A DNA stretch of 64,000 bases. It comes from Thermoproteota archaeon (lineage in GTDB: Archaea; Korarchaeota; Korarchaeia; Korarchaeales; Korarchaeaceae). The notes beneath the pieces were generated by a model that was not told the origin of the DNA, ran no database searches, and worked only from the letters and a program-made list of their open reading frames with translations. The stretch lies in the NCBI GenBank assembly GCA_026986575.1, contig JALSOH010000004.1:248001-312000 (forward strand), written 5' to 3'. The translations under genes were made by a program, and so were the position numbers. Of the stretch, positions 4,715 to 28,918 are shown one piece after another; the first letter of the stretch is position 1; each line of letters begins with the position of its first letter.

Positions 4715-5035
4715 ATGGTGAGCATGAAGACCAAGAAGATGCTTTCCTATGTGATCTTAGGACTTCCTCTGATCCTAATCCCAATGACCGTGATCGGAGT
4801 AGCTGCTGCACCTCAGGAAGCCCCTCAGGAGGGTTCTGGGCTCAAATACATTGGAGCCGCGCTAGCTGTGCTCGGTAGCACCATAGGTGCGGGAATAGGG
4901 CTCTATGGAGTTGCCATAGGTGGTAGTGCCTTATTGGCCGAGAATCCCAATGCGTTTACTCAGGTACTGATATTAGGAGGTCTCGCTGAAGGAGTTGCCG
5001 TTTACGGGCTGTTGGTCGCCTTCCTCCTCATATGA
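4715..5035 (+). CDS. atpK: A-type ATP synthase subunit K (c-ring proteolipid)
   Basis: A 106-residue protein with three hydrophobic stretches. The first (MLSYVILGLPLILIPMTVIG) ends in AAAPQEAPQEG and looks like a signal or leader segment; the next two form the c-subunit hairpin: YIGAALAVLGSTIGAGIGLY and VLILGGLAEGVAVYGLLVAF. The ion-binding Glu is the one in GLAEGVAVYG. AENPNAF in the polar loop is typical of the family. It makes the rotor ring that couples ion flow to rotation. Start ATG at 4715 is preceded by GGGTGAT with short spacing; an internal ATG at 4724 is possible. It is the last plus-strand ATPase gene and converges with atpC. The motif does not tell safely whether H+ or Na+ is used. 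Confidence 0.93.
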   Translation: MVSMKTKKMLSYVILGLPLILIPMTVIGVAAAPQEAPQEGSGLKYIGAALAVLGSTIGAGIGLYGVAIGGSALLAENPNAFTQVLILGGLAEGVAVYGLLVAFLLI

Positions 5036-5162
5036 GGGGGAAGCCTTCCCTATTTTCTAATTCTACACTCACGTCTTCTCTAGATGAGAGGAGTTACCAT
5101 CCATCAGCGTTGCAGAAGAAGGTGACTGCCAAGGGAGGAGAAGTAAAAAGTAGAAAGAACTC

Positions 5163-6203
5163 TCATCCAGATGGAGGAGCAAGTAGCTTGTATAACACTT
5201 CTGGGTCGACCTTGCTTGCCCGGCCCAATAGGACTGTTTTTATGCTCTGTGATTCCCACTCTGAGGCCACTAGATACATGATTATATAGGCAAGGGTCAT
5301 AGATCCCTTTAAGGAGATCCTTAAGCCATCCATGTAAGCCCTCTTCCCGATAACATGCTCGATCACCCAAGGTTCACCGACTTCCTTCAAGGCATTCCTG
5401 ATCTCTACGGCTAGGGCCTTATATGGGGGCAGATTAATGAGCTCGTCGAGGAACTCGGGCAGAGTCCCCGTCTTATCAGATATCCTTAGCAATCTCTTGA
5501 AGGGAATCCTGCGGAACGCTATTGATAGGAGCTCCCTGTCCACCTCTAGATACTTAGCTTTCAGCAACGTCCTGAGGAACACATTCTCGGCATAAGAGTA
5601 GACGATCTGATATATGGGGGACTGCTTCCCAGCCTTTATCTCCTTCAAGTGGGAGAAGAGCTTGTCTATGTAGTACCTGTCGAGGGCGAGATCGATCTCC
5701 GTGACCTCACGGCTACCGCTGAGCCATGTCGAGAGGAGCCGTTTCAACCTCTTGTCGTCCAGCATCTCGAGCAGATCCTCGAATCTTTTAGCCTTTGAGA
5801 GCTTGTCTACATCGATTACGCCAAATCTAGCAGGAAGTAGCCTAAGCTCCTCCTGCTTCCTTCCAAAAAGTAGGGAGAACACAATCCTCCTGAGGTTTTC
5901 TATATCATATTTGCTCATGAAAGTTGTGATCAGTCCCTCGATCCTAGTGCCTCTAGATAGGGACATTACCCTCCTAGCCCTGAATGAGTTGACCTTGATG
6001 CATACGTCTTCCACCTTGGCCACATTGCTCAAATCCTCGGGTCCCTCGAAGAAACTACCGTAGAGAGTCGGTGACAGCTTATCGAACAGGCTTTCATCGC
6101 TCTCAACAAAGACCCATGATCTTATGTCCTCGGGATCCAACAAGTGGGACTTTAGACCATGAGTTCTGACTACCAGATACTTCTCCTTAGCTCTCTTAAG
6201 CAT
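5163..6203 (-). CDS. atpC: A-type ATP synthase subunit C
   Basis: About 346 residues, mostly helical and soluble, matching subunit C of the A/V-ATPase (the d-like funnel that joins the central stalk to the c-ring). Family features seen are the three repeated helical modules each starting near a V/I-R-x-H/G-L-K pattern (VRTHGLKSHLLDPEDI near the N-terminus), the IENLRRIVFSLLFG segment, and the C-terminal SEWESQSIKTVLLGRASKV, corresponding to the conserved E-x-x-N/S-I-K/R region. ATG at 6203 follows GAGGGGTG at good distance and overlaps the end of atpD; a GTG at 6212 is the longer option. It is the last gene of the F-H-E-A-B-D-C string and converges with atpK over a 127-base gap. Confidence 0.88.
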   Translation of the reverse strand: MLKRAKEKYLVVRTHGLKSHLLDPEDIRSWVFVESDESLFDKLSPTLYGSFFEGPEDLSNVAKVEDVCIKVNSFRARRVMSLSRGTRIEGLITTFMSKYDIENLRRIVFSLLFGRKQEELRLLPARFGVIDVDKLSKAKRFEDLLEMLDDKRLKRLLSTWLSGSREVTEIDLALDRYYIDKLFSHLKEIKAGKQSPIYQIVYSYAENVFLRTLLKAKYLEVDRELLSIAFRRIPFKRLLRISDKTGTLPEFLDELINLPPYKALAVEIRNALKEVGEPWVIEHVIGKRAYMDGLRISLKGSMTLAYIIMYLVASEWESQSIKTVLLGRASKVDPEVLYKLLAPPSG

Positions 6204-6204
6204 C

Positions 6205-6828
6205 TCAAGCACCCCTCTTCAGCTGCCTATACTTCTTCACGCGGAGGAATTCTTCTAGAGCGTCCTCTTCCAGCGCCTCCTCTATGTACTTTATGGCGGC
6301 CTCGTGATCAGGTATTATTATCTTTTCTAATGCATTCACCTTCCTCATTGTATCGGCAAGGGCCGCAGCCAGCCTTTCAAACTTGGCCTCGGAGTTTACT
6401 AGCGGCATAAGCTCCTTTATCGCCTCTGAGAACTTCCTAGCAGCGGCTATTACCACTGCGTTCAAGGATGGAGATGTAGCCAAAGCGAACTCCCTTATCT
6501 CTATCTCGGGTATCTCCACGCCAATGACGCTCCGCACCTTCATTTCCGTGAGGAGGGGCATAGTCAACAAGGCCGCTTTCCTCATCTCATCGGGTCCGGC
6601 AGCGGCGTAAGCCAGCCTTAGAAGCTTGTAGGCCTCCTCTAACTTCTTCTCGACCTCGCTCCTCCTCCTAAGATCTGGAAGCAAGTTCTGACTTTCCTTG
6701 ACCAGCTGGTCTCTCTTCATCTTGAGGGCGTCAACTCCCGAGCGGAGGAGACGCGTTCTCTCCCTTAAGCGGATCAAGAATCCCTTGGTGGGGAGGACCC
6801 TCCCCACGGAGCGGAAGCTCAATCTCAC
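6205..6828 (-). CDS. atpD: A-type ATP synthase subunit D (central stalk)
   Basis: A 207-residue protein, almost entirely helical, with the family start [21 protein letters not shown] followed by [12 protein letters not shown] and a C-terminal long helix ([22 protein letters not shown]) that pairs with the N-terminal one to form the rotor shaft. It connects the A3B3 head to subunits F and C. The start is a GTG overlapping the atpB stop codon by four bases (GTGA), so translation is coupled to atpB. The last codons overlap the upstream region of atpC. Length is normal for archaeal subunit D. Confidence 0.92.
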
Positions 6829-8231
6829 TCACCCTCTGCCTGGGCTGCGATCCTCCTCTTCGGGTGGAACTTGTTAAGGGTCTTCTCGCTTATTCTCGTC
6901 AGTTCAGCTTCGGGCAGTATGGACAGTATGTCCCAAGCGATGTCCAGAGTCTCCTCTATACTCCTCCTCTCCCTGAAGCCTTGAGCCACGAACTCTCTCT
7001 CGAACCTCCTAGCGAACTCCAAGTACAGCTTCTCCCTCGGGCTCAGTCCCGCCTCACCTACTATCTGGACGAGCTCCCTAGCCTTGGTACCCTGGCTGTA
7101 AGCGGCGTAGAGCTGATCTGAGACCTCCTTGTGGTCTTCCCTAGTCTTTCCTGGACCTATACCGTCCTTCATGAGTCTGCTAAGACTTGGCAGGACGTTG
7201 ATCGGTGGATAGATGCCCCTGTTGTGGAGATCCAAGTCTAAGAATATCTGACCTTCGGTGATGTAGCCCGTCAGATCAGGTATGGGGTGGGTCAGGTCCC
7301 CGCCGGGCATGGTGAGTATGGGCATGAAGGTTATCGAGCCGGACCTGCCGATTATCCTGCCTGCCCTCTCGTAGATGCTCGCTAGATCGCTATACATGTA
7401 GCCGGGATATCCCTTCCTGCTGGGTACCTCCTCCCTAGCGGAGCTGAGCTCCCTCAGCGCCTCGCAGTAGTTGGTCATGTCCGTGATTATGACTAGAACG
7501 TCCATACCCAAGTCGAACGCTAGGTACTCGGCAGCAGTCAGGGCGACCCTCGGGGTGGTTATCCTCTCTATGACCGGGTCGTTGGCTAGGTTTAGGAAGA
7601 GCACGGACCTGCTCAGCGCCCCGAATTCCTCGAACTGCCTCCTGAAGAAGAGGACGTCGTCGTACTTCAGACCTACTGCCGCGAAGACTATGGAGAACCT
7701 CTCAGCCTTTCCGGGGACGACCGCCTGCCTCGCCACCTGAGCGGCTACCTCGTTATGAGGCAGTCCGGACTCGGAGAATATTGGAAGCTTCTGGCCCCTG
7801 ACCAAGCTCAGCATTCCGTCAATGGCGGATATACCTGTCTCGATGAACTCGTCCGGGTAGTCCCTCTTGGCTGGATTTATGGGAGCGCCGTTTATGTCCC
7901 TATAGTCGTCCGCCCTTATCTTAGGGCCTCCATCTATCGGCTCACCTGCGCCGTTGAACACTCTACCGAGCATCTCATCCGACACAGGGATCTTCAGGGT
8001 CGAGCCGGTGAACTTGACCATGGCGTTGGAATCCAGCCCCTCAGTGTCGCCCAGCACCTGTATGACGACCTTATCCCTGCCGGCCTCCAGCACCTGACCG
8101 AACCATTCTCTGCCGTCCTCGGAGTAAATCCTGACCACTTCCTCGTAAGCAGCCCCGGGAACGCCCCTCATTATGACGAGGGGCCCCTTCACCTGATCAA
8201 TCCCCTTGTAAGTCAGACCATACACGGACAT
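6825..8231 (-). CDS. atpB: A-type ATP synthase subunit B (non-catalytic)
   Basis: A 468-residue homologue of the catalytic A subunit without a working Walker A: the loop reads [19 protein letters not shown] where subunit A has GFGTGKT. Other hallmarks are [16 protein letters not shown], the [19 protein letters not shown] segment, [41 protein letters not shown] (seen at 7380-7420) and [23 protein letters not shown]. It builds the non-catalytic half of the A3B3 head. The ATG at 8231 follows GAGGTGA within the end of atpA; the two genes are separated by one base. Length and all signature stretches are normal. Confidence 0.96.
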
Positions 8232-8232
8232 C

Positions 8233-10020
8233 TCATCTCACCTCCGCGAGAAGGGAGGATATCTCAGCCTCAAGTTGCGCTATAGCCTCCTTGACAGCGT
8301 TCTCGAATTCCTCCTCGGGCACGAACTTGAGCCTCCTGAGGAGACCCAGTGATCTCATCTCGGCTATCCTAGATACGGGGACTCCTGCATCTATCATGGG
8401 TCTGGCTCTATCGTAGAACTCCAGCAGCGTCTTCAGGAGGAGGGCCTGCTTCTTCGGGGAGCAATAGGTATCTACCTCGTGGTAGGCGTTCTGCACCAAG
8501 AACCCCTCCTTGATGAGCTCAGCAGACAGGAGGACGAGCCTGTTCTCATCGGAGAGAGCCGCCTCCCCCACTACTCTGGCCACTTCCTCCAGACTGGAGG
8601 CCCTCTGCAGAAGGGCCATGGCCTTATCCCTGTAAGCCATCATGTCATGTCCGGTGTTCTTGATCCACCACTCCTTCAATCCACCGGTATACTTTGAGAA
8701 GCTCCTCAGCCAGTTTATGGACGGGAAGTGCCTCTTGAACGCCAAGTCCTTGTCTAGAGCCCAGAAGGCGCCCACGTATCTCATAGTGTGTTGAGTGACG
8801 GGCTCGTTGAGGTCCCCTCCGGAGGGACTCACGGCCCCTATAACAGCGACGGACCCTAATTCGTCCCTCCTACCTTGGACCTTAATCCTACCAGCCCTCT
8901 CGTAGAACGAGGCTATGTAGTCAGGTAGATAGGCTGGATATCCCCTCTCAGATGGTATCTCCTCAAGCCTAGAGCTGAGCTCTCTCAGCGCCTCGGCCCA
9001 TCTGGAGGTAGAATCTGCCGTAAGGACTACATGAAGCCCCATGTCTCTGTAATACTCAGCGTAAGTGATTCCCATGAAGATGCTGGCTTCTCTAGCGGGG
9101 ACGGGCATGTTGCTGGTGTTGGCTATAAGGACGCTCCTCTCGAGCAGGGGTCTCCCGCTCTTGGGGTCTACCAGCTTCGGGAAGGTGTGGAGCAAATCGG
9201 TCATCTCATTACCTCTCTCCCCGCAACCCACGTACACCACAACATCTGCATCTGCCCATTTCGAGATTTGATGGAGGGTAACCGTCTTACCGGTACCGAA
9301 GCCACCAGGCACGGCGGAAGTGCCTCCCTTAACTATGGGAAAGAAGGTGTCTATCACCCTCTGCCCGGTTACTAGAAGCTCCACGGGGGCTAGCTTCTCC
9401 CTGAAAGGTCTAGGTGTCCTGACAGGCCATTTATGATACATCTTAACCTCTTCCTTACCGCCTATGTGCTCCACCACGACTACAGGCTCCTCTATAGTAT
9501 AGTCCCCCTCAGGAAGGACCTCTATGACCCTGGCCTTCTCTATGGTCGGCGGGAGCATTATCTTATGAGTGACGGATCCCTCTGGGACGGTTCCTAGGAC
9601 ATCCCCAGCGACGACATCGTCTCCAGGCTTGACCAAGGGGGTCCACTGCCACTTCTTATCCCTAGGGAGGGTGGGCGCCTTAATTCCTCTGGTGATGAAT
9701 GGACCACCAGCTTTCTCGGCTATGACTTCTAAGGGCCTGCCCAGTCCATCGAGAACCTGTCCTAGTAGTCCCGGCCCTAATTCAGCTGAGAGAGGCTCCC
9801 CAGTCCTCTCGACAGGTTCACCCGCCTTCACTCCACCAGTAGGCTCGTAGACCTGTATTATCGCTTTGTCTCCTTCTATCCTGACTATTTCACCTATGAG
9901 TCTCTCCTCCCCGACGTAAACGACCTCCCTGATCTTGGCACCCCTCATTCCCTCGGCTTCTACTACGGGACCCTTTATGTGGACGATAACACCTTTACCC
10001 TCATAAACTAACTCGGACAA
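8233..10020 (-). CDS. atpA: A-type ATP synthase subunit A (catalytic)
   Basis: A 595-residue catalytic subunit. Walker A is [13 protein letters not shown] near residue 240, the catalytic Glu lies in [16 protein letters not shown], and the Ser-Arg-Trp stretch [19 protein letters not shown] and [14 protein letters not shown] are all present. The archaeal-specific non-homologous insert (about residues 115-200) is present with [16 protein letters not shown]. No intein interrupts the P-loop region, a common intein site in archaeal A subunits. Start is TTG at 10020, preceded by GGGGGTG with a six-base spacer inside the end of atpE; no ATG lies nearby in frame. It hydrolyses or makes ATP in the cytoplasmic head of the enzyme. 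Confidence 0.96.
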
Positions 10021-17759: not shown

Positions 17760-17848
17760 ATTGCTCACCTCTCGCACTGCCCGTTATGGGGCCAGTCTAC
17801 TCCCTCGTGCTACTGTCCATTTAAAAATATAATCTCTGGAAAGGTCGC

Positions 17849-18845
17849 ATGCTTATTAGCGTTGGATGGTCTTACCCTAGGATGGACGAGTCCGAAAGGT
17901 TGGAGGGGCTGCCTCCTTGGGCCATAGATACGCTAAAAACACTCGCACTCAGCAAGTCTCTTAAGGAGGGAACTACCAGACGAGTGGAGACATGTGAAAG
18001 TGAGACTGAGACGAGGAGAAATCCGCGATAAACTCCTCACCAGAGAGGAAGCTCATTGAGGCAGCTCCCTCAGCGAAGGCTAAGGCCCTAGTTGCGGCTG
18101 TCTATGATGGAGCTCTGAGGATTTCCGAAGCTATCTCGTTAAGGGTGAAGGATTTAGTGCCCTTTCATCATGATGGCGCCGTTGTGGGTTATATCACTTC
18201 AGCTAGGGGGGAAATGTGGGAGAGAACAATTCTGTTTGTCGACTCCTATCCTTATTTGAGGGAGTGGTTGTTAGTGCATCCCCTACCAGACCCAGATATG
18301 CCCCTCTTTCCCTCTTCCCTTAACATCTATAGACCTATGAGTAGACGAACCGCAGAGGACTTGTTTAAAACCATTAGAAGGAGAGCGGGATCAGAACATG
18401 TGACATGGCATTGGTTGAGGCATACACGACTCACTGAGCTAGCTTCGAAGCTTATAGAGAGCGAATTGAGACTCGTTGTGGGCTAACACCTAACTCGAAG
18501 ATGGTGGAGACCTACTTGCACCTCTCAGGGCGAGATGCCGTCTCAGCGATGGCAAGGAAGGTTTACGGCCTCGAACCAGAGGGTGAGGAACCAATCACAT
18601 CATCCATAGCTCCCAGAGTCTGCCTCGTATGTGGGTATACGAATCCTACAACAGGGAGGCTTTGCCTTCAGTGTGGCGCTGGGCTGGTCCTGAGTGAAGA
18701 GGAGAAAGTAGAAGTTGTAAAAAGGGAGCTGCTCGTGGATAGTATCATGTCCGCCGTAATGAGCGATGAGGAGGCTGCATCACTATTGAGAAAGGCCGTA
18801 GAGATAGCAGTGAAGCGAGGGCTTATCACATTGAGATTAAACTGA
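17849..18845 (+). pseudogene. Tyrosine recombinase (archaeal integrase) broken by frameshifts
   Basis: Three overlapping reading frames together give one XerC/D-like integrase. The N-terminal part is open from 17849 (PPWAIDTLKTLALSKSL). A shift leads to RRGEIRDKLLTREEA, a second near 18050 to IEAAPSAKAKALVAAVYDGALRISEAISLR (bases 18053-18144; Arg-I in GALRISEA). The box II motif HWLRHTRLT lies at about 18410. A third shift near 18480 precedes the nucleophile motif MVETYLHLSG. The protein ended in a zinc ribbon (CLVCGYTNP...CLQCGAGL) and a helical tail, as in several archaeal integrases. Every catalytic residue is still legible, so decay looks recent. No att repeats were found around it. Confidence 0.8.
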
Positions 18846-19578
18846 AAATCCCGCTTCTTCCTCTTCTACCCCAATTGTATATTTTATAACAGCATTTTTC
18901 TTAGCTCATTCCACATGAGAAGAACACTCTCCTTGCTTATCGAAAAACTAGAAAAAATTTGCACTTCAATAAAGTAAGCCCTCTCCTTTGAGATTCGGGG
19001 AAAATAATCTATTTTGAAGGACTTAAGAAAACTGTCAATGGAGGGGAGGGTAATAAAAATAAGAGGGGTATTAGGGGGCTGGTACTTGCTAACACAAAGA
19101 GAAAGGAGAAATGAGAACAACTTAAGACCCATTCTCTCCTCTTCTTGATCATTAAATTAGGATACCTCCTTCTTGGTACTCTATATAATCTTCCCTCCTT
19201 GCTTCTCTTTCTGGTAGAGAAGGGAAGAGAGCAGCCTCGTGGAGAGTGAAAGAGAAGGGGTTAGGAACACCACGCCCATCACATGAAGATGAAAATGGAA
19301 GAGAGCATCACTCACTCTCATAAAGAGGATGAAAGAGATGTTGTTACCTCAAAGAGCACGCAGAAGAACAGGTATCTTCAAGAAAATGAAAAAGAGGGGG
19401 CTGTAACCACTCCCACCGCGTATAATTCCCATCAAGAGGCTAAAAAACACTATTACAGAGAACGCAGAAAGTGACCTGAGCCCAAGTGAGAACCCAGAAG
19501 ATGTGGAGTAGCCTCGCCCATTAAGAGATCAGGGTAAAGGGAAAGAGAATGAGTAATTTTCACTTTCTACTTTCTGGT
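18846..19578. other. Gene-poor, A/T- and purine-rich stretch
   Basis: About 730 bases without a convincing gene. Short open frames exist on both strands (for example 18884-19132 minus and 19283-19474 plus) but their translations are low-complexity (runs of K, E, H, T), lack an SD and resemble nothing I know. The plus strand has long GA-rich tracts around 19200-19420. It may be degraded mobile DNA. Confidence 0.5.
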
Positions 19579-19995
19579 TTAGTATAGCGTCCTCTCTTTG
19601 AAAGTGCCTAACATGTTTAACACTACTTTGATGGGGATCACCTCCAGCTGACCTTCCCTTCCAGTGAGAAGAACCGGGTAACCCCTTTTCAAGCCTAGAG
19701 CGTTGAAGAAGGGCTTGGGAATTGTGTATCTGACCGAACCGTCTCTTTGTTTGACTACCTTTACTTTCTTGACATTCCACCCCCGCCCCCTCAGTATTTG
19801 AACTGCTTTTTGCTTGCCGAGCTCTGAGTCTAGGTTAGTGAAGAGGATGCGATCCTTCCCTAAAATGGCCAGTACGAAGTCACCTATACGCGAGATGATG
19901 TGAGATGTTTGGATGAAGTAGGAATCACATCGAGGTCTCTTCTGAATCAGAACCACACTGTAGTAGGTATGATCGTCCCTTGTGTACGGCGTCAT
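19579..19995 (-). CDS. AbrB/SpoVT-like DNA-binding regulator with unknown N-terminal domain
   Basis: A 138-residue protein. The segment from about residue 75 to 125 (VVKQRDGSVRYTIPKPFFN, then ALGLKRGYPVLLTGREGQLEVIPI) has the swapped-hairpin AbrB pattern 'G..r.tIPk.....LgLk.Gd.v.l....g.l.l.pi'. The first 70 residues (VVLIQKRPRCDSYFI, FVLAILGKDRILFTNLDSE) are a separate beta-rich domain I do not recognise. The gene starts five bases downstream of a CCTATATAGG palindrome and diverges from the ParB-DUF488 gene. A likely role is repressor of the cassette and of itself (inference from layout). It has no frameshift, unlike most neighbours. Confidence 0.6.
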   Translation of the reverse strand: MTPYTRDDHTYYSVVLIQKRPRCDSYFIQTSHIISRIGDFVLAILGKDRILFTNLDSELGKQKAVQILRGRGWNVKKVKVVKQRDGSVRYTIPKPFFNALGLKRGYPVLLTGREGQLEVIPIKVVLNMLGTFKERTLY

Positions 19996-20000
19996 AGTAT

Positions 20001-20010
20001 CCTATATAGG
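20001..20010. promoter_or_regulatory. Palindromic operator candidate 1 (CCTATATAGG)
   Basis: A perfect 10-base palindrome lying 6-15 bases before the ATG of the AbrB-like gene, where its leaderless or short-leader transcript should start. Binding here would block that promoter. The same 10 bases recur 30 bases away. Confidence 0.55.
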
Positions 20011-20030
20011 CTTTTTTCTATTAAATAATT

Positions 20031-20040
20031 CCTATATAGG
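20031..20040. promoter_or_regulatory. Palindromic operator candidate 2 (CCTATATAGG)
   Basis: Identical to the palindrome at 20001, start-to-start distance exactly 30 bases, about three helical turns, so both sites face nearly the same side of the DNA. It lies just upstream of the TATA-like TTATATTGG (20051-20059) of the ParB-DUF488 gene. The A/T-only spacer between the copies (with TATTTAATAG on the minus strand) can hold the TATA box of the AbrB-like gene. Confidence 0.55.
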
Positions 20041-20075
20041 ATCTACAAGGTTATATTGGAATTCCCACCACCCCA

Positions 20076-21143
20076 ATGGCGGAGGGTACGAGTGTGAAGA
20101 TAGCCATTGACAAGATCGTCGTTAACCCGGATCTCATAGCTAGGTCGAGTTTAAACGACGAGTACCTTGAAATGCTTGCAAAAAGTCTTGATGAGGATGG
20201 TCTCCTCCATCCGATAACAGTCAGACCACTAAGTGACGGTAGGTATGAGCTAATTGATGGTCTTCATAGGCTAAGTGCGGCAAAAAGGCTTGGTTGGAAG
20301 GATATAGAGGCTAATGTAATCGATGCAGATGACCTAGAGGCGAGGTTTCTCTCCCTCAAGGCGAATCTCGTGAGGAGAAGCTTAGAACCTGTTGAGGAGG
20401 GAGAGGTAGTCTATAGGATAATGGTCAAGCATGGTCTTACTGAGAAGGAGGTAGCAAAGAGGCTGGGGGTCACTACCAAGTGGGTATCTGAGAGGTTGGC
20501 CTTGGTGCTCAAGGTTCCAGAGGAAGTCAAGAAGATGGTTGCTGAAGGTAAGCTCGGTTTAGGACACGCGGTTGTTATCTCCAAGATAGAGGAAAAGGAG
20601 AAGCAGTTAAAGTTCGCCAGACTAATAGTTAGAGAGGGCTGGTCAGTCAAAGAAGCAGAGAGAATGCTACCAGAGTTCTTAAACGACACGATCTACACTA
20701 TAGGCTACGATGGGAGAACTTTCGAGGAGCTACTCTCCATCCTCAAAGAGAACGGCATAGTCATGGTGCTCGATGTGAGACACGATGTGGAGTTCGTCAA
20801 ACCGGAATTTTCGATAGAGGTTCTTAAGAGACAGCTTCCAGCCAATGGGATAAAGTATGTGCACGTTAAGGAGCTCGGAGTCCCCAAACTAATTAGGGAG
20901 CCGTATGTAAAGGGTAAAATGTCCTATGAATGCTTCAGACAATGGTATGAGTGGTGGTTAGAGGAAAACTCCGAAATCCTCGAAAGGGCTTTGAGAGAGG
21001 CAAAATCCACTGGTCCAACAGCTTTACTCTGTCAAGAGAGATATCCTACTCCGAAGAAGGGTCAGAAGCACTACTGCCATAGACATATACTCGCTGAGGT
21101 CGCCTTGGAGTTAGGTATATTTGAAAAAAGACTCGATTTATGA
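20076..21143 (+). CDS. ParB-like N-domain fused to DUF488
   Basis: A 355-residue two-part protein. Residues 1-95 are a ParB/Srx-like domain: ITVRPLSDGRYELIDGLHRLSAAKRLGW (bases 20217-20300) holds the G-x-H-R phosphate-binding box, followed by NLVRRSLEPVEEGEVV. Residues 120-200 hold the KorB-like HTH (EKEVAKRLGVTTKWVSERL). From residue about 202 a DUF488 domain follows: TIYTIGYDGRTFEELLSIL, VLDVRHDVEFVKPEFS, YVHVKELG, then the Cys/His pair LLCQERYP and HYCHRHILAEVA. ParB domains bind or cut nucleotides or DNA; DUF488 function is unknown to me. ATG at 20076 would be nearly leaderless; GTG at 20094 with GGAGGGT upstream is an alternative. Intact, in contrast to flanking genes. Confidence 0.8.
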   Translation: MAEGTSVKIAIDKIVVNPDLIARSSLNDEYLEMLAKSLDEDGLLHPITVRPLSDGRYELIDGLHRLSAAKRLGWKDIEANVIDADDLEARFLSLKANLVRRSLEPVEEGEVVYRIMVKHGLTEKEVAKRLGVTTKWVSERLALVLKVPEEVKKMVAEGKLGLGHAVVISKIEEKEKQLKFARLIVREGWSVKEAERMLPEFLNDTIYTIGYDGRTFEELLSILKENGIVMVLDVRHDVEFVKPEFSIEVLKRQLPANGIKYVHVKELGVPKLIREPYVKGKMSYECFRQWYEWWLEENSEILERALREAKSTGPTALLCQERYPTPKKGQKHYCHRHILAEVALELGIFEKRLDL

Positions 21144-22026
21144 GAGGGTATGTAAGCTGCCGAGGGAAAAGATAATAGTTTTGGCAAAAACTTATCCAGA
21201 AGTAAGCTCAAAGTACGGGCCACTTGTCTGCGTTGCAGGAGTTACTCTGAAGGGAGAGTGGAGGAGGCTCTATCCCATCCAGTTCAAGCTTTTCTATGAT
21301 AAGGAATTCGAGCATGCGAAATTCAAGAAATGGGATATCATTGAAGTTGAAACTACCACAGCGGAACACGATCCGAGGAGAGAGAGCAGAAAGGTAGTGG
21401 ATTGGAGAGCTATCAGACCCATTAGTCACGTGAGAGATTGGAGTTTGAGGCTTTACATCACATCGAGATTCTTAGATCCTAGTATCGAGGATATAGTAAA
21501 TAGTGGTAAGAGTCTCGGGATAGTTAAGCCTAGATCTATCAAGAAGTTCTACAGAAAAGAAAGAGCTAGGATCAGAGATAGAGGTGAACTTCAAGTTCTT
21601 GAGAGGATGGAAGCTGTTAGTCTCACCCAATATATTGAGATGGGGGACGAATATTTGCTTCCCGAAGTTAAACGCCGAGAAGTGATTCCCGAAGAATTAC
21701 CTTGGTTGGGATATAGATTCGTGTGTGAGGGTGAAGGTTGTAAGGGACATGACATGATGGTAATAGATTGGGAAATTCAAGAGCTTTACAGAAAATTAAG
21801 ACAGGAGAGGAATGAAGAGGAAGCTTTCGAAAAGACCAAAGAGAAGGCTATGTGGATGGCCACAGAGAGGAACTTATACTTCGTCGTTGGAAACACTTGG
21901 AGATATCACAAAAGCTTCATGATCATCGGCCTTATCTACCCACCGAAGGATGTAAAACCAGTAAATCCATTGGAGGACCTCTTTGAGCAGTCAGAAGAGG
22001 AGGTGCTAACACGGTTTCTTGAGTGA
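21121..22026 (+). CDS. Unknown protein coupled to ParB-DUF488 (Cys-rich HD-like motif)
   Basis: A 301-residue soluble protein I do not recognise. It starts PREKIIVLAKTYPEVSSKYG, contains LKGEWRRLYPIQFKLF and KFKKWDIIEVETTTAEHDPRRESR, and near residue 202 a compact motif CEGEGCKGHDMMVIDWEI that may bind a metal ion, then WMATERNLYFVVGNTWRYHKSFMIIGLIYPP close to the end (bases 21852-21935). The start appears to be TTG at 21121, inside the last 23 bases of the ParB-DUF488 gene; no later start lies in frame before the conserved-looking segment, so translation is probably coupled. A short frame (TTG at about 22014, 29 codons, ending VTARGYLALIRRLV) overlaps its 3' end and looks like the end of a wHTH protein. 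Confidence 0.65.
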   Translation: MKKDSIYERVCKLPREKIIVLAKTYPEVSSKYGPLVCVAGVTLKGEWRRLYPIQFKLFYDKEFEHAKFKKWDIIEVETTTAEHDPRRESRKVVDWRAIRPISHVRDWSLRLYITSRFLDPSIEDIVNSGKSLGIVKPRSIKKFYRKERARIRDRGELQVLERMEAVSLTQYIEMGDEYLLPEVKRREVIPEELPWLGYRFVCEGEGCKGHDMMVIDWEIQELYRKLRQERNEEEAFEKTKEKAMWMATERNLYFVVGNTWRYHKSFMIIGLIYPPKDVKPVNPLEDLFEQSEEEVLTRFLE

Positions 22027-22114
22027 ATTCATCTTATCTGCAGATGGAGAAATTTCCGTGACCGCTAGAGGTTATCTCGCGCTAATAAGGAGATTAGTCT
22101 AAAGTAGTTTTCCC

Positions 22115-22659
22115 TCATATCCGTATCTCAGTGCTGGTATGTGCACCCTTCACGATCTCAAGGATTCTCTCAACGTCATCCTCCCTACACCATCACGATT
22201 TTCAATCCGAGGGGAACCACCTTTTCTATGTTCCCCTTCACCTGACCGGGCTCATTCCTCACCTCTCCGGGGACTTGACCTCTATTGAGACTGTATCCTC
22301 TAAATCCCAAGTCCATTCTTCTAGAGGGATGGCTAGGAAGTCAGGTTGGAATTCACCCTTCTGCATTAGTGTAACCACTAAGTATCCAGCCTCCTGTAGT
22401 GCATAACAGCTTCCTCGGCCACCGATGGTGACACTTTCCTCACGTTAATCTGTGATCTTAGATATCTCCTTCCCGATCCCGTCGTCTCTAATATCTTTAT
22501 TCTACCCCTCTCCACTTCCTTCCCGGCCTTCAGCCTCATAAGGCCCTGATCTAAGAACTTCTTGATGCGTTTTGGTACATCAGCTCTGCTCAAACCGAGA
22601 CTCTCCTCCATCTCCATCACGTAAGCCTTTTCTCCCAGCATGTCTATGAGATTTAACAC
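22115..22659 (-). pseudogene. Winged-helix plus PD-(D/E)XK nuclease-like protein, frameshifted
   Basis: Four frame pieces read as one protein of about 180 residues. The first (22378-22659) is a winged helix: LNLIDMLGEKAYVMEMEES, LGLSRADVPKRIKKFLDQG, ILETTGSGRRYLRS. After a lost base (at about 22400) comes LQEAGYLVVTLMQKGEFQPD, then FLAIPLEE and VSIEVKSP: the D...ExK spacing of restriction-endonuclease folds. After another lost base, GEVRNEPGQVKGNIEKVVPL continues, and after a third, REDDVERILEIVKGAHTS to the stop at 22115. It lies 60 bases after the ATPase relic on the same strand, so it was probably the last gene of that operon. Confidence 0.6.
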
Positions 22660-22719
22660 TGCATAGTCCTTTGGATCGGGGAGTTTCTCGACATCTATTA
22701 GATAGATCTAAAAACAGAG

Positions 22720-24759
22720 CTACTCTATTCTCATCTCCCTCTCTGATGCCTTGTACGTCTCCCTCATCCTCCTCACTATTTCCATAGCCTCCTCTCTATC
22801 TCTCAAGGCTCGGGGAGGTGGGCTCATCCTCACTCGATATAATAAGAAGGGCTTTCTTGGATCCGAGGGCCTAATCCCCACCAAAGCGACATGGTTCGGT
22901 AGGCTCACCAAATCGTGGCGTATGTCCTCCTTCATACTTGGGCCTATTATGCTCGCTAATCTACTCGCATCCTCTCCTGAAACGCGAAACATTATCTGGG
23001 TAGCTGTATTAGTGAGAATAGAGGCTATTAATTCATCTAAGAGCTGCTTGAGGTTCTGATGAATGTGTGTGCGTAGTAGCTTATATTTCCTACTTTCAGA
23101 AAGTAGAGAGGTTTTGCAGGTTCTGGAACTCATCAACGAATAACAGGATAGGTGTCCTCTCCTCATAAAGGTATTCCCTAGCCCTAGACAGGACAGCGAA
23201 CCATATGGAAAGCGCTACGGCAGCACTCCCAGCTCAAGCACCTAGCCCGGTAGGTCGGCCTTCGAAAATCTCCAGATTACCAATTTACCATCCTCTAGGA
23301 GCTCCTCCATTCTCACAGTACTCTTTCTCCTTGAGAACGTCCCCCTAAGGAGAGGAGATGTAGCGAAAGCCTGTAACTTGTTTAGAGCTGCTGCAAATGC
23401 ATCAGAAGGAAGCCTCTGTATGAATTCCATGCTCTCTTTTATCGCCTGCTCGTCCTTCAGAACCTGTTGCATCTCCATCGTGAGCATCAAACCCTTCTTT
23501 CTAAGCCTCATTATCACGTTATAGAGATCCCTAAACGTTGGCCTATCACTCTTCAAGTAAAGTAGCGTAGACATGTCTGTAAAACCTAAGTTAGTCTAGG
23601 TGCTTTTTGTGTTGCGATGCTAAATAATTGTTCGAAGATCTTCATCATTTCGGAGATTTTCAGCTCAACAAGAATATCACATTTCTCCTCATCCTCATAC
23701 GGAGCTAGTTCGAGAGGATTCGGTGAGTAGCCGACTTCGATTATATCGAAGTAGTAGAGTGAGCTGGGATCCAGATCTACCTCTAGAAGTTCTCTCGCTA
23801 AATCACTATGTGGATCAATTACATGTATGGCAGCCTTATATCTCTTCTTTCTCAGTCCAACTATGAGATTTTCAGTATTGTGCTCTTTCCGTGCCTGAAG
23901 CCCCTATTACATATGTGTGTAGCTCTAACGCGTAGAATGGGAGCTTAAACAGGTCTCATCTCCTCACTGAGAACCTGCGTCAACTCTTCCTTAGCCTCCT
24001 TAACCAGAGTTTTCAACCTCCCTAAACGTTCCATACTTACAAGATCACCCCCGACGCTATGCTGTCTTCTTAGGGGGATAGCTAGCAGCCCTAACTGAAC
24101 TCCGCAAGCCACTTTAGAGGAAGAGACTCGTCATCGGGTAACCTCACGAAATCAGTGATCTCTTGCGATGTCGCTGGGATTGTGAGTAAATGCTTCATAT
24201 CCAGCCTCTCTTCAATCCTCTTCTTCAATGAGCCCCTATTCACCTTAATTCCACGATATGCGATCTCCTTTATATATCCTTCTAGCTAGGAGACCCTTCA
24301 CGACATATAGTTGAAGAGACTCATAATCCCCTCTCTGTGCCCATGCATCCTTCAAAAGAAGGGAAGCCATCTTCCTAGCCATCTCTCGCCAGTCATATTC
24401 AATTACCAATATCTGGAGCAGGGCCCTTTCTGCTGTGGAGAGGGAACGGAGTGCGTTGTTTATCGAATTCACTCCGCTAGGCTCAATAAACGTAAAACCG
24501 TTCCCTACTGAAAAGGCCAACGATAAAGATGACAGCAAGTGGGTTAGGAGGTACCCAGATCCTCACCTTCCTAAAGCTAACATTCCTATACACTCCTCTC
24601 AGCAGATCGACCATCTCTCTACGCGAGGGAGAGAAGATCCTCGTCCTTATCTTCCCACCCTCAATATGATACTCTATACACCCCCTGAAGCCACTGGCTA
24701 GTTGGAGTGCCTCCTCTTTTCCAATTCAACTGGTGGATACTCTATCTCATATCCAAGAA
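22720..24759 (-). pseudogene. HerA/FtsK/VirB4-like DNA-translocating ATPase, many frameshifts
   Basis: Pieces in all three minus frames line up as one ATPase. In gene order: VVLGYEIEYPPVELEK and IRTRIFSPSRREMVDLLRG (about 24590-24745); NNALRSLSTAERALLQILV (24245-24538 piece); KLPFYALELHTYVIGASGT then GKSTILK in another frame, a Walker A broken by one missing G (about 23876-23905); VGLRKKRYKAAIHVIDPHSD; the piece 23242-23574 (LPSDAFAAALNKLQAFATSP); Walker B ILLFVDEFQN at 23129-23150; and the C-terminal piece 22720-23100 (IHQNLKQLLDELIASILTN, TQIMFRVSGEDASRLA). At least six single-base lesions. The family pumps DNA in repair, conjugation or defence; this copy cannot work. Confidence 0.75.
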
Positions 24760-25545
24760 CTACCGTTTCCTCTTCACCTCCACTTCAACATCTGAGAAGA
24801 CGAGTACGGTGTCTCCCTCCAATTCACCCTTCAATAGCACGCGTGTACCCTTATACGAGGTGAAAACACGCGTGAGATTGACGTAATTCTTCCCTTTTCT
24901 CACTGTATAATCCGTGATGGGGCGTACGGCCACCTCCACATTGTATTCTCCCCTCTCCTTCTCTTCTATCTCTCCCTCATCTTCAACAGTGAAAGATACA
25001 GTCAGAGGCATCGTCTCCAAGAGAGGGAAACTTGACAGCTCTCAGCCTCGCAGGTCTGAAAACCAGCTTCACAGTGCACCTTCCATCCTTCATGTATGTG
25101 TACTCCTCGATCGCGAAGAGTAGCTTCTCCTCCGCCCACTTTCCTAACTTGATACCTCTCTTCTCCACCTCCTCTCTCAGCTTCCTGAAAGCCTCGTTCC
25201 TTACTTCATTGTAATCCTTTCCCTCTAGGAGGACGGCTATCTTTTCATCGCTCACTCGCGCGCGATGCCTCGATCGGTATCACAGGTACCTCCTCCCTCT
25301 CCAGTGAAGTGATCCTCCAGCCTATGGGTATGAACCTCCTTTGCAGATACTCTACGACCTCCTCCACTATACACCCATAATGGCGGATTGAACATCTTAT
25401 CATCTAGCACTTCACCGCTAGGACCCTTAACGATCAATCTCAGGGAAGGATTGTGGACGTACTCATCAGGTCTCCTAGTAAACATAAAAATACCAGCATT
25501 TGTTGCCGTATACTCACCATTCCTACTTGTTACGCGCGCTTTCAC
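24760..25545 (-). pseudogene. Unknown gene upstream of the ATPase relic, frameshifted
   Basis: Three frames combine: 25252-25545 (YTATNAGIFMFTRRPDEY, LIVKGPSGEVLDD), then after a shift near 25390 IVEEVVEYLQRRFIPIGW, LEREEVPVIPIEASRA and EKIAVLLEGKDYNEVRNEAF, KWAEEKLLFAIEEYTYM, VKLVFRPARLRAVKFPSL, then after a second shift near 25020 LTVSFTVEDEGEIEEKER to EVEVKRKR. The product would be about 260 residues, mixed alpha/beta, no membrane helix. I do not recognise it. It sits between the AlbA_2 relic (13 bases upstream) and the ATPase relic (touching), so it belonged to the same operon. Confidence 0.5.
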
Positions 25546-25557
25546 CGTATAAAGAGG

Positions 25558-25945
25558 CTATTTCATCAGTCTAGCCTTCCTTGTACTTGAACCCATCCTC
25601 AGGTAGACGTCATTCCCAAATACGTAGATCTTATTCTTCTCAGGTGTGACTTTTATCACGAATACTCTCTTATCATCGAGAAATACCCACTCATACTCCA
25701 GACGGGGTTTAGGCTGGAGTGAGTTAAGGAAGTTAGTTAGCTTCTCCACACTATCATCTGGGCCCCCCAACTTCTCCTGAATCGTTAACACCAACAAGTA
25801 CAATCCCTCCTTCCCTATTTGCAAGAGCACAGATAGCCTGCATCAGCTTTTTATTCACCCTCTCCTTGAATTCTAATCGAGGGCCTTCTCCCCTCTTTAG
25901 AAGAGCTACTAACTCCTCCTTCTCTACATACGTACCATGATACAA
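25558..25945 (-). pseudogene. AlbA_2 (Schlafen-like) domain protein with a frameshift in a G6 tract
   Basis: Two frames join into one ~128-residue protein. The first, from ATG 25945, has GEGPRLEFKERVNKKLMQA and ICALANREGGIVLVGVNDSG, the clear AlbA_2/Schlafen-type signature (LEFK...ANx.GG.i.iGV.D.G). It runs into a stop after GEVGGPR. Removing one G from the G6 run (plus-strand C6 at 25763-25768) restores the frame GEVGGPDDSVEKLTNF, which continues NDVYLRMGSSTRKARLMK to the stop at 25558. Upstream there is a TATA-like ACATATATAAATG at about 25950-25962. The family includes nucleic-acid-binding regulators and defence proteins. Homopolymer slippage, decay or a read error could each explain the shift. 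Confidence 0.7.
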
Positions 25946-26123
25946 AACATAAACATATATAAATGCAGACGAAAAGTATGCGAATGTTTGAAATAGATTT
26001 GGGAACTTTCCACATGATTTTATATAATATAAGCAGTATAATAGACATAACTTCTAATTATCCCACGATCATATTACATTATCTTACCTACGTTTAATTT
26101 GTCTTCCTACCCAAAGAGAATAG

Positions 26124-26651
26124 GAATATCTGAGAGAGTTAGGTTTCTCTGTATCATTTACAGCTACCTACGCATCGCTGCACGAGCTGGGCCATTACCT
26201 CGCTAGGATAATATCGAAGTTGAGTCCAAGCGACATGGCCTTGATGAGGATGTTTATCCAAGGGCCTGTCAAGCCGTCCGATGTACCCATAATCCTCTCG
26301 ACGGGAACTATCTTCTCTCTCGCAGTCGTCCTGATCTTCCTCATAGTCGCCAAGGCTTCGGGTAAGACCTTCCTAGTCTACGCCGGTTTCGCTGCTAACG
26401 CGGCCTTCAACCTCCTGACGCCTGTGGGCGACGCTCTGTGGCCGATCCTCGACTTGGACACGTCTGCCCTCCTGTTCTACCTCAGGCATGCCCTCCTGTT
26501 CCTCCTGATCCTGTCACTCATCAACGATATGAAGCTCTTCACAACGGATCGCGCGCGGGAACTCGCTTCTTTCCGCGTTGTCGGGGAGGAAGAGAACATG
26601 AAGCTCGCTCTGGCTTCAATCTTCACGAAAGATTTGGAGAAGGGACACTAG
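26124..26651 (+). pseudogene. 5'-truncated M50-like membrane metalloprotease
   Basis: An open frame of 176 codons begins right after a stop at 26121. Its first part reads SFTATYASLHELGHYLARII, with a clear HExxH zinc motif of the intramembrane protease type, and is followed by hydrophobic segments (IFSLAVVLIFLIVAK, FLVYAGFAANAAFNLLTPVGDALWP (26385-26445), YLRHALLFLLILSL). The A-A-F-N-L-L-T-P-V-G-D stretch resembles the second M50 motif N-x-x-P-x-x-x-x-D. No ATG, GTG or TTG precedes the HELGH motif, so the 5' end has been lost; starts at TTG 26220 would lose the zinc site. Codon use is more G/C rich than the AT-rich surroundings. Confidence 0.6.
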
Positions 26652-26657
26652 GTCAAC

Positions 26658-27439
26658 GTGATAGCTCTGGGGCCCTCAGGAAGCGGAAAAACGACGATAA
26701 TAAAGGGCGCCCTCTCCGTTTTACCTCAAAATCACTACAAGGAGATAGTCCGCGCAACTGACGCGGCGTTCGAGTATGCTGCAGAGGAGCTGAAGCACAA
26801 GGTCATAGCGTTCATACAGATGCCAGCTGGACAGTCGAAGAGCGACACGATACATGTCCTAACGAGCGAGGGAGAGCTGAGGATACTCATAACGGTGAAG
26901 GACGAGGAGACGGGCACTAGGAGAACGGTGGAGAGGAAAGCGAAGGGCCCCGTCGTCTTGCTGGGGGCGATAGTGGACGAGAAACTTGTCAGGATCGACG
27001 AGCAGATGAAAACGAGGACCCTCTTCATCTCCCTCAACCCCTCTGGGTCCCAGACGATCGAGATAATCAGGAACAAGAAGTTACAGTGATGCATGTTCTA
27101 CCTCAACTCGATCTACGAGGATCAGCTCAGGGAGTTCAGGGAGTGTTATGAGTCTTTTTCCGCCGGCGCAATAAGGTAGGTCTATAATCTCCTCTTCCCG
27201 CTCATCGGAATAAACCCCGGGCTGGGGAGAGGGTGAGGAGGGACGTAGCCAAGGTCGAGAGCATCATAGATGTGCTCGCTTACCTGAGGCAGGGTAGGAG
27301 GTACATACTCAGGCTGAAGAAGAGGATAAGCGACAACGGTAAGGAGGAGAGGGTCTGGATGTCATCCCGCCTTCTGTGCAAGACCTGATGGATGCTGTAG
27401 ATATCGTCAAGTCAACACTTGAGAAAATAATTTTTTAGA
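26658..27439 (+). pseudogene. SF3-like helicase of a mobile-element primase-helicase, truncated and frameshifted
   Basis: The open part (26658-27089) starts VIALGPSGSGKTTIIKGAL, a Walker A, followed by HKVIAFIQMPAGQSKSDT (Walker B-like position), LTSEGELRILITVKDEETG, VERKAKGPVVLLGAIVD and a C-terminal RTLFISLNPSGSQTIEII. This order resembles helicase parts of archaeal virus and plasmid primases (SER..T.y.lr.lLS.g.l....KGP..il.TT..). The primase half is absent. After the stop, relics continue in other frames: CMFYLNSIYEDQLREFRE, RDVAKVESIIDVLAYLRQGR, and VQDLMDAVDIVKSTLEK ending at 27439. It starts seven bases after the protease fragment and shares its G/C-rich codon use. Confidence 0.55.
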
Positions 27440-27529
27440 ATATTCTCCATACTTAAAGAAAATTCTGGAAGCGCGCGAATTATTAAGAATATTAGGCACT
27501 ATATTCACAGTTTTCAACTCGGTGAATTC

Positions 27530-27640
27530 ATGAAAAAGAGTAGAAACACTATCCTTCGAAAAAGAAGGTCGAGGAAGAGGAAGAAAAGGGCCATTTTAGA
27601 ACAGATTAAGAGGGAAAAGATGAAAGAGGTGATCGTATGA
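27530..27640 (+). CDS. 36-residue strongly basic mini-protein
   Basis: ATG at 27530 with GGTGA four bases upstream, 36 codons and a stop overlapping the next ATG (ATGA). About 20 of the 36 residues are Lys or Arg, including RKRRSRKRKKRA, followed by the helix-forming LEQIKREKMKEVIV. Such a peptide could bind nucleic acid. It lies in a decayed region, yet is itself intact and followed by a gene with a strong SD (GAGGTGAT). I do not know a family. Confidence 0.35.
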   Translation: MKKSRNTILRKRRSRKRKKRAILEQIKREKMKEVIV

Positions 27641-27977
27641 GCGAGAATAACGAACTAATGCGTTTAGTTTAAGAGAGTGTGGTAGGGGTAAAAGAAATCC
27701 CGGTAAAATCTCGAAAGACCTTCTTAATGCTGATTTTGTCTCTCTTGTCTCGCTAAGGGAGGAGAAAGTTGTTCTCCTCGATGAAAGGGACAAAAACGAA
27801 CTCACCAAATCTCTAGGATTAAAAATGAGCTATAATTCGCTTGAAATGAAGAAGAAAGAAGGGAATGGCACTAATTTCGAAGAGAAAAGTGTCTTTGTGA
27901 TCGGAGACCTTCATGTCGGCAACAAGCTTTTTGATCATCCTGCTTTATTCTCTGCTCACTCAAATTCAAGAGAGTGA
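27637..27977 (+). pseudogene. Metallophosphoesterase-like gene fragment
   Basis: ATG 27637 has a good SD but stops after 11 codons (ENNELMRLV). One base later the frame is open again (ECGRGKRNPGKISKDLLNAD, FVSLVSLREEKVVLLDERDK) up to SVFVIGDLHVGNKLFDH, which has the D-x-H of calcineurin-like phosphoesterases, and closes at 27977. No later phosphoesterase motif is legible downstream, where a C7 homopolymer lies at about 28091. This looks like the N-terminal third of a broken gene. Confidence 0.4.
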
Positions 27978-28168
27978 GGAAAAGATAGATGAAATCGCAC
28001 TCGGTTTATCTTGCGAGAATGAAGCAGAAGAAGGCACGTATTTATATAACGGAGAATGTTGCTCTAATAGTGGCCTACTTGCCTCCCCCTCCCCCCCACT
28101 TCTCCTTTCTAAAAAGGAAGTTGTTGGATCTAAACGCAACTAAGTTGGCAGAATAACTAGTGATTTTT

Positions 28169-28788
28169 TTACATATTCTTTCCCGACTTTGTATTAACTT
28201 TCACAAGTTCATTTATAATTTGATTTATTTGACTGGTTTTATGTCTGTTAATCCTGAAGGATGCTAAAAAGATCATAGCAAACGCCAAAATAGTGATGAA
28301 TATATCTAAATTATATTTTTCAGTAGCAAAAGAATATATAGCCAATAGTAGAAGAGAAATGAGCGAGGATGAGCAGATGGATCCTCCTATATGTCGGATG
28401 TATATAACCCGTTCCAATCCTACAACGACACTTTTCCCATATTTTCTTTCTATAAAGAAGATGGCCTTAAAGAATGCTCCATACCCCTCACCGAATTCAT
28501 GAGGAGGCTTAACTCCCACATCAGTTATCTTGAGAGCTGCAACAGTCTCGCTGGAGAGTATTCCTAAAAAGTAAGATACCATGATAACTTCTAGGAATGA
28601 ATATATGTCAGATGCGGAGATTTTATATATAGACCCAGTCACCTGAGTAGATATATCCAATTACAGATAAGATATTGAAACCTCCCATTATATATGTTAG
28701 ATCTCTCATAATGAAGGAAGTGTACAACCTATCTCCCAACAAATCTCCACTGCTGACCAAAGGATCACACCCGAATTGATCCCTCACT
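28169..28788 (-). pseudogene. AT-rich membrane protein relic
   Basis: A 163-codon frame (28169-28660) holds a Y-rich N-terminus (DIYSFLEVIMVSYFLGILSS), a polar middle (KPPHEFGEGYGAFFKAIFF, VVVGLERVIYIRHIGGSI) and two helices (LISLLLLAIYSFA, FITILAFAMIFLASF). Upstream in another frame (start GTG about 28786) is GCDPLVSSGDLLGDRLYTSF followed by a hydrophobic segment IMGGFNILSVIGYI that leads into the first frame. The two probably formed one gene. Family unknown to me; strong A/T bias suggests foreign DNA. Confidence 0.45.
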
Positions 28789-28918
28789 ATCTACTAATAA
28801 CTTCAGCCTTACTTAGTTGAAATGGTTGAGCGTCGTTGAGGATTATTCCTAAGATATTTGTTAAATGTGCGATCTTCTCAATGTTTAATATAACTGCGAG
28901 AGTTATCCTGTCGGACAG

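Follow-up and report, generated by a model that had tools for sequence, protein, structure and literature searches.

The closest described relative of the locus presented here is PDC-M19, a candidate phage defence system of PADLOC made up of two components, M19A and M19B. PDC classes were proposed from gene context, by "guilt by embedding" (Payne et al. 2024, preprint, cited in PMC12988326), and according to PMC12988326 the majority of them are without experimental validation. PDC-M19 is not named in the main text of that article, and the accessible literature offers no experimental proof of defence by PDC-M19. A comparable pair is carried by a Gordonia phage, in which gene 43, the phrog_25907 protein, lies beside gene 42, a DUF488 gene. 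The ParB side of the locus has its own relatives in the Noc, Spo0J and ParB clamps of chromosome segregation. Moreover, an archaeal ParB-DUF488-HTH fusion has been reported to bind CTP via its ParB fold (Kaljevic et al. 2025, PMC12704722); it has the same domain combination as the protein described below, and the accessible part of that study deals with CTP binding and not with the partner genes or with DUF488 function.

In the 64-kb stretch of DNA analysed here (the window), neither of the two genes, A (20076..21143, + strand, 355 aa) and B (21121..22026, + strand, 301 aa, TTG start), is interrupted, and their reading frames overlap by 23 bases, as the original prediction had it. The fusion of a ParB-like half to a complete DUF488 domain, also proposed there, is real: Pfam recognises in A a ParB_N domain (residues 8-98, E 1e-14), HTH_ParB (102-200, E 4e-21) and DUF488 (216-342, E 6e-17). 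Since homologues start at the equivalent of residue 7 and a GTG at 20094 stands behind a GGAGG, A may in fact begin at this GTG instead of the ATG at 20076. A matches M19A with an E value of 7e-22, over model positions 137-281 only, which correspond to the DUF488 half, whereas the Panacea-DUF488 protein of another archaeal locus, L145, covers positions 1-285 of the 294. As L145 fits the whole M19A model, the ParB form of the window is an architectural variant of PDC-M19A, in which the Panacea front end is swapped for a ParB-CTPase domain and an HTH, so that only the DUF488 half of A is matched. The second protein had been described as an orphan, which is ruled out by its matches to the three M19B models of PADLOC (E 4e-45, 1e-44 and 2e-21, two of them matched nearly full length) and to phrog_25907 (E 1e-41); it has no match in Pfam or NCBIfam. 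The DUF488 domain also matches PDC-M45 (M45B/M45C), at E 3e-15, more weakly than M19A, and B belongs to M19 and not to M45. Thus, the pair agrees with PDC-M19 in both component matches and in gene adjacency, and a system that had been called unknown was already a candidate defence system. We give a probability of about one half to the reading that it is a ParB-carrying archaeal variant of PDC-M19, acting as a mobile CTP-gated anti-invader module and carried as cargo by a now-dead integrative, probably conjugative element.

The ParB half of A finds its strongest structural and sequence matches in Noc, Spo0J and KorB. It shares with the segregation clamps not only the ParB_N and HTH_ParB domains but also the CTP-binding box I (GLLHPITVRP) and the GxxR arginine (GLHR). 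In contrast to them, it lacks the glutamates of box II (GERR) and box III (ENxQR), which sequence comparison of the window, Sulfolobus and Haloquadratum fusions shows to be replaced by L or S and by A, N or T, respectively. Both glutamates are tied to CTP hydrolysis, that of box II being E93 in Myxococcus xanthus. In the M. xanthus E93A entry 7o0n, the mutated residue is indeed that of box II, where GERR reads GARR. The Q52A variant of M. xanthus ParB is deficient in hydrolysis (PMC12462528), and the position corresponding to Q52 is apparently altered too in the thermophile proteins. The ParB half of A is therefore predicted, on residue comparison, to bind CTP without efficient hydrolysis; lacking the residues needed for turnover, it should remain closed or serve as a CTP sensor, and not cycle.

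The same likeness might suggest that the pair serves plasmid maintenance or partition together with transcriptional control, A being a KorB- or Noc-like regulator of the element and B its partner, and plasmids are indeed numerous among the carriers. However, A ends in DUF488 where a canonical ParB has its C-terminal dimerisation domain, and no ParA gene was seen next to the pair in any annotated region or ORF list inspected. Moreover, DUF488 and B are widely found together without ParB, and elsewhere among archaeal genomes Panacea takes the place of the ParB half or that half is missing. We consider this explanation unlikely. Under the preferred reading of an anti-invader module, the ParB half would be a clamp that binds CTP and either keeps the complex on DNA or sets its position there.

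DUF488 is a widespread domain, which 6 of 14 control genomes contain, that of E. coli among them; no activity of it was found in the literature searched, and no related solved structure by sequence search. Foldseek on A was dominated by the ParB half, and was thus uninformative for DUF488. The DxR, CxE and CHR residues of the domain, which are those expected of the active DUF488 subclade, are invariant across the phage and archaeal forms (alignment A6), and might make it the catalytic half of A. For B, a sequence search gave no related solved structure either, and the AlphaFold2 model (pLDDT 70, pTM 0.73) retrieved with Foldseek HIN-200, RPA, telomere-end-binding, POT1 and SSB proteins, mostly OB-fold nucleic-acid binders, with a best E value of 0.004 and none passing 0.001. 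B also carries a partly conserved Cys/His cluster (C202, C207 and H210). The model suggests, with low confidence, that B is a tandem OB-fold nucleic-acid binder.

An OB-fold-like partner next to a conserved set of Cys, His, Arg, Asp and Glu residues, together with carriage by phages, could also be understood as DNA or RNA modification or repair, in which DUF488 would modify bases or remove altered nucleotides and B would deliver the single-stranded substrate. The element would then be the one to gain, by a shield from host restriction, and not host defence. No recurring modification or precursor-synthesis genes were seen in the loci inspected, and we regard this possibility as decidedly improbable. 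If the pair is instead a module directed against invaders, B would bind nucleic acid via its two OB-folds and DUF488 would act with it on the nucleic acid or nucleotides of the invader.

The original prediction could be assessed by asking whether the two genes recur side by side, and they do, in distant archaea and bacteria and on plasmids, phages and genomes alike. We examined 21 loci with full-length B, picked for spread and non-random: plasmids of Sulfolobus/Saccharolobus, Haloquadratum, cyanobacteria, proteobacteria and actinobacteria, Gordonia phages, two thermophilic archaeal metagenome-assembled genomes (MAGs), five other archaeal genomes and the window. One further locus (L148), with a partial B (E 1e-13) adjoining masked sequence, was left out of the count. 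An intact DUF488 gene adjoins B in 20 of the 21, spanning archaea, bacteria and phages; the sole exception is the Sulfolobus plasmid pSOG2, in which A is reduced to its last 35 codons, while the sister plasmid pSOG1 has the entire gene. Comparison of pSOG2 (4878-5861) with pSOG1 (4936-6864) reveals a natural deletion of A that keeps B and the gene that follows it.

The front end of the DUF488 partner varies. The ParB-HTH-DUF488 form is found in the window, its two closest relatives (L056 and L057), pSOG1, pBEU9E1 and Haloquadratum, and a longer ParB-DUF488 protein in L147. Panacea is a SocA-like antitoxin chaperone domain. It precedes DUF488 in L145 (8709-9554, - strand), directly upstream of B, and an N-terminus resembling this Panacea part is fused to DUF488 in L143 (5180-5998), again directly upstream of B. 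Streptomyces has an XRE-HTH-DUF488 partner, and most bacteria, L144 and L146 have a bare DUF488. Many of the bacterial pairs are convergent overlaps and most of the other archaeal pairs are overlapping operons; in the Gordonia phage, DUF488 is stand-alone and convergent, unlike the fusion of the window.

These partner forms raise the possibility of a toxin-antitoxin or addiction module, with B or DUF488 as the toxic part and the variable N-terminus of A (Panacea, XRE-HTH or ParB) neutralising or repressing it. An antitoxin domain and an antitoxin-typical XRE-HTH do stand N-terminal to DUF488 beside B, and the gene pairs overlap; but the majority of bacterial partners consist of DUF488 alone, with no antitoxin-like domain, the convergent order is atypical of such pairs, B resembles a binding protein and not a known toxin fold, and pSOG2 exists with B but without an intact A. 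Although this alternative deserves weighing, we find it doubtful. The interchangeable front ends are best read as sensor domains, gating a DUF488-B complex that would act on nucleic acid.

Several neighbourhoods of the pair match conflict with invaders. In another archaeal genome (L144), the surroundings of the DUF488-B operon include a short PIWI/pAgo-like gene, two PIN-type toxin pairs and a gene for a Cas4-like nuclease (646-2418, 5035-8362), the pair of L143 has as neighbour a PLD-SNF2 helicase with close similarity to known defence helicases, the Haloquadratum pair is accompanied by DNA methyltransferases, and the Gordonia phage pair is located in the lysogeny region. The context of L146, where the pair sits among housekeeping genes, does not match. 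Among the plasmid carriers, 11 of 24 were typed as conjugative, and one carrier, that in the window, is an integrated element. In viral contigs, the queries P0002, A1 and single bacterial B proteins brought up nothing beyond ParB proteins and one Gordonia phage; the degenerate alignment of B was too divergent to serve in contig scans. Two viral matches described as "DUF488-like" (L053 and L054) were rejected: they look like phage terminase large subunits, matched by chance over 27 residues.

Compared with PDC-M19, the archaeal cassette adds a regulator gene, R, and, in relatives, a third gene, C. In L056 and L057, which belong to Acidilobaceae and Desulfurococcales MAGs and whose A proteins are 66-67% identical to that of the window, the gene order is divergent R, A, B, C. 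In the window, R (19579..19995, - strand) is a small divergent gene whose product appears AbrB-like by eye and has no Pfam match; alignable homologues, 38-42% identical, occupy the same place and orientation in both relatives. Between R and A are two CCTATATAGG palindromes (20001..20040), 30 bp apart. This palindrome has only these two copies in the window, against 0.15 expected, and the spaced pair is found once in the genome, so that it is likely, judging from its sequence and placement, to be an operator; the R-A intergenic region of L056 has another palindrome, AAACTATTTATATAAATAGTTT. R is part of the cassette and, we infer, would repress the operon from the paired palindromes. Such a compact regulator-operon layout with a unique double palindrome would suit an addiction module as well.

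Gene C (163-173 aa) follows B in L056, L057, pSOG1, pSOG2 and pBEU9E1. It has no Pfam or PADLOC match, and the pattern EIDxxAL...FExK...EQA, present in four sequences and typical of PD-(D/E)XK nucleases, makes it a putative member of these enzymes that would complete the cassette in the related hyperthermophiles. No remnant of C was detected in the window at E 0.1. The earlier description of the system as intact is thus correct for A and B, and fails for the third gene of the nearest relatives. Without C and in decayed surroundings, the copy in the window may be inactive or recently stranded. In L057, a small zinc-ribbon-like ORF (9050-9340) lies between A and B; it is missing from the window and L056.

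The cassette lies in a strain-specific inserted element of about 11.05 kb (17833..28893, right end approximate). Alignment of five congeneric genomes places position 17832 of the window immediately next to 28887, with seven bases in common, and the genes flanking the element sit side by side there, which identifies the region as an insertion that those genomes lack. The element is bounded by a 7-bp direct repeat, whose end is TATAA, and its GC content is lower (0.38-0.51 within the element versus 0.51-0.55). B was not detected in the 60 near and distant relatives searched, which took in the genus as well. The decay around the pair noted by the original prediction is confirmed in three genes. 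The tyrosine integrase (18145..18845, + strand) has a catalytic part split by a frameshift (PF00589 in the first fragment, E 1e-6) and a C-terminal zinc ribbon (DZR, second fragment); the remnants of a VirB4/HerA-like conjugal-transfer ATPase (22378..24538, - strand; NCBIfam NF045971, E 1e-5 on 22723-23166) lie in pieces in several frames; and a Schlafen AlbA_2-domain gene (24760..25945, - strand; PF04326 on two overlapping frames) is spread over at least three frames. Such breakage agrees with a conjugative or integrative element that is now dead. Low-GC ORFs are also present near its right end (28169-28660 and 26220-27089), one of which holds a P-loop fragment.

Reading by eye, there are many frame breaks in about 5 kb of coding DNA of the element versus none in the 1.95 kb of A and B. 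This intactness had been taken to indicate selection for the pair; it is suggestive and not proof, since the pair might alternatively be the newest arrival in the element, and an addiction module would also account for a pair that survives in a decaying element. The family as a whole, in contrast, is clearly under purifying selection: the comparison of L056 with L057 gives a dN of 0.07 and a dS of 1.8 for A, and 0.13 and 2.6 for B. Between these relatives and the window, dN reaches 0.25 for A and about 0.42 for B, with dS saturated. The association of A and B is a real and conserved observation, and not noise.

PDC-M19 had already been classed as a candidate defence system, and the ParB-DUF488 fusion had already been published. 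In the sources searched, we did not find a connection of the ParB fusion to PDC-M19B, the archaeal cassette with R and C, the absence of the residues for hydrolysis, the probable OB-folds of B or the exact empty site. As a nearly constant neighbour of DUF488, in both domains and in phages, B provides a concrete handle on the function of this domain. That a ParB CTP clamp can stand in for Panacea points to modular sensing in a candidate defence system and to a possible non-hydrolysing CTP switch. In its boldest form, which is quite unlikely, the proposal is that of a CTP-gated immune effector, in which a naturally hydrolysis-dead ParB clamp would load the DUF488 enzyme and its OB-fold partner onto invading DNA, the trigger being the CTP level or clamp loading itself. 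If true, this would be, to our knowledge, the first case of a CTP switch driving a defence system, as well as the first activity of DUF488.
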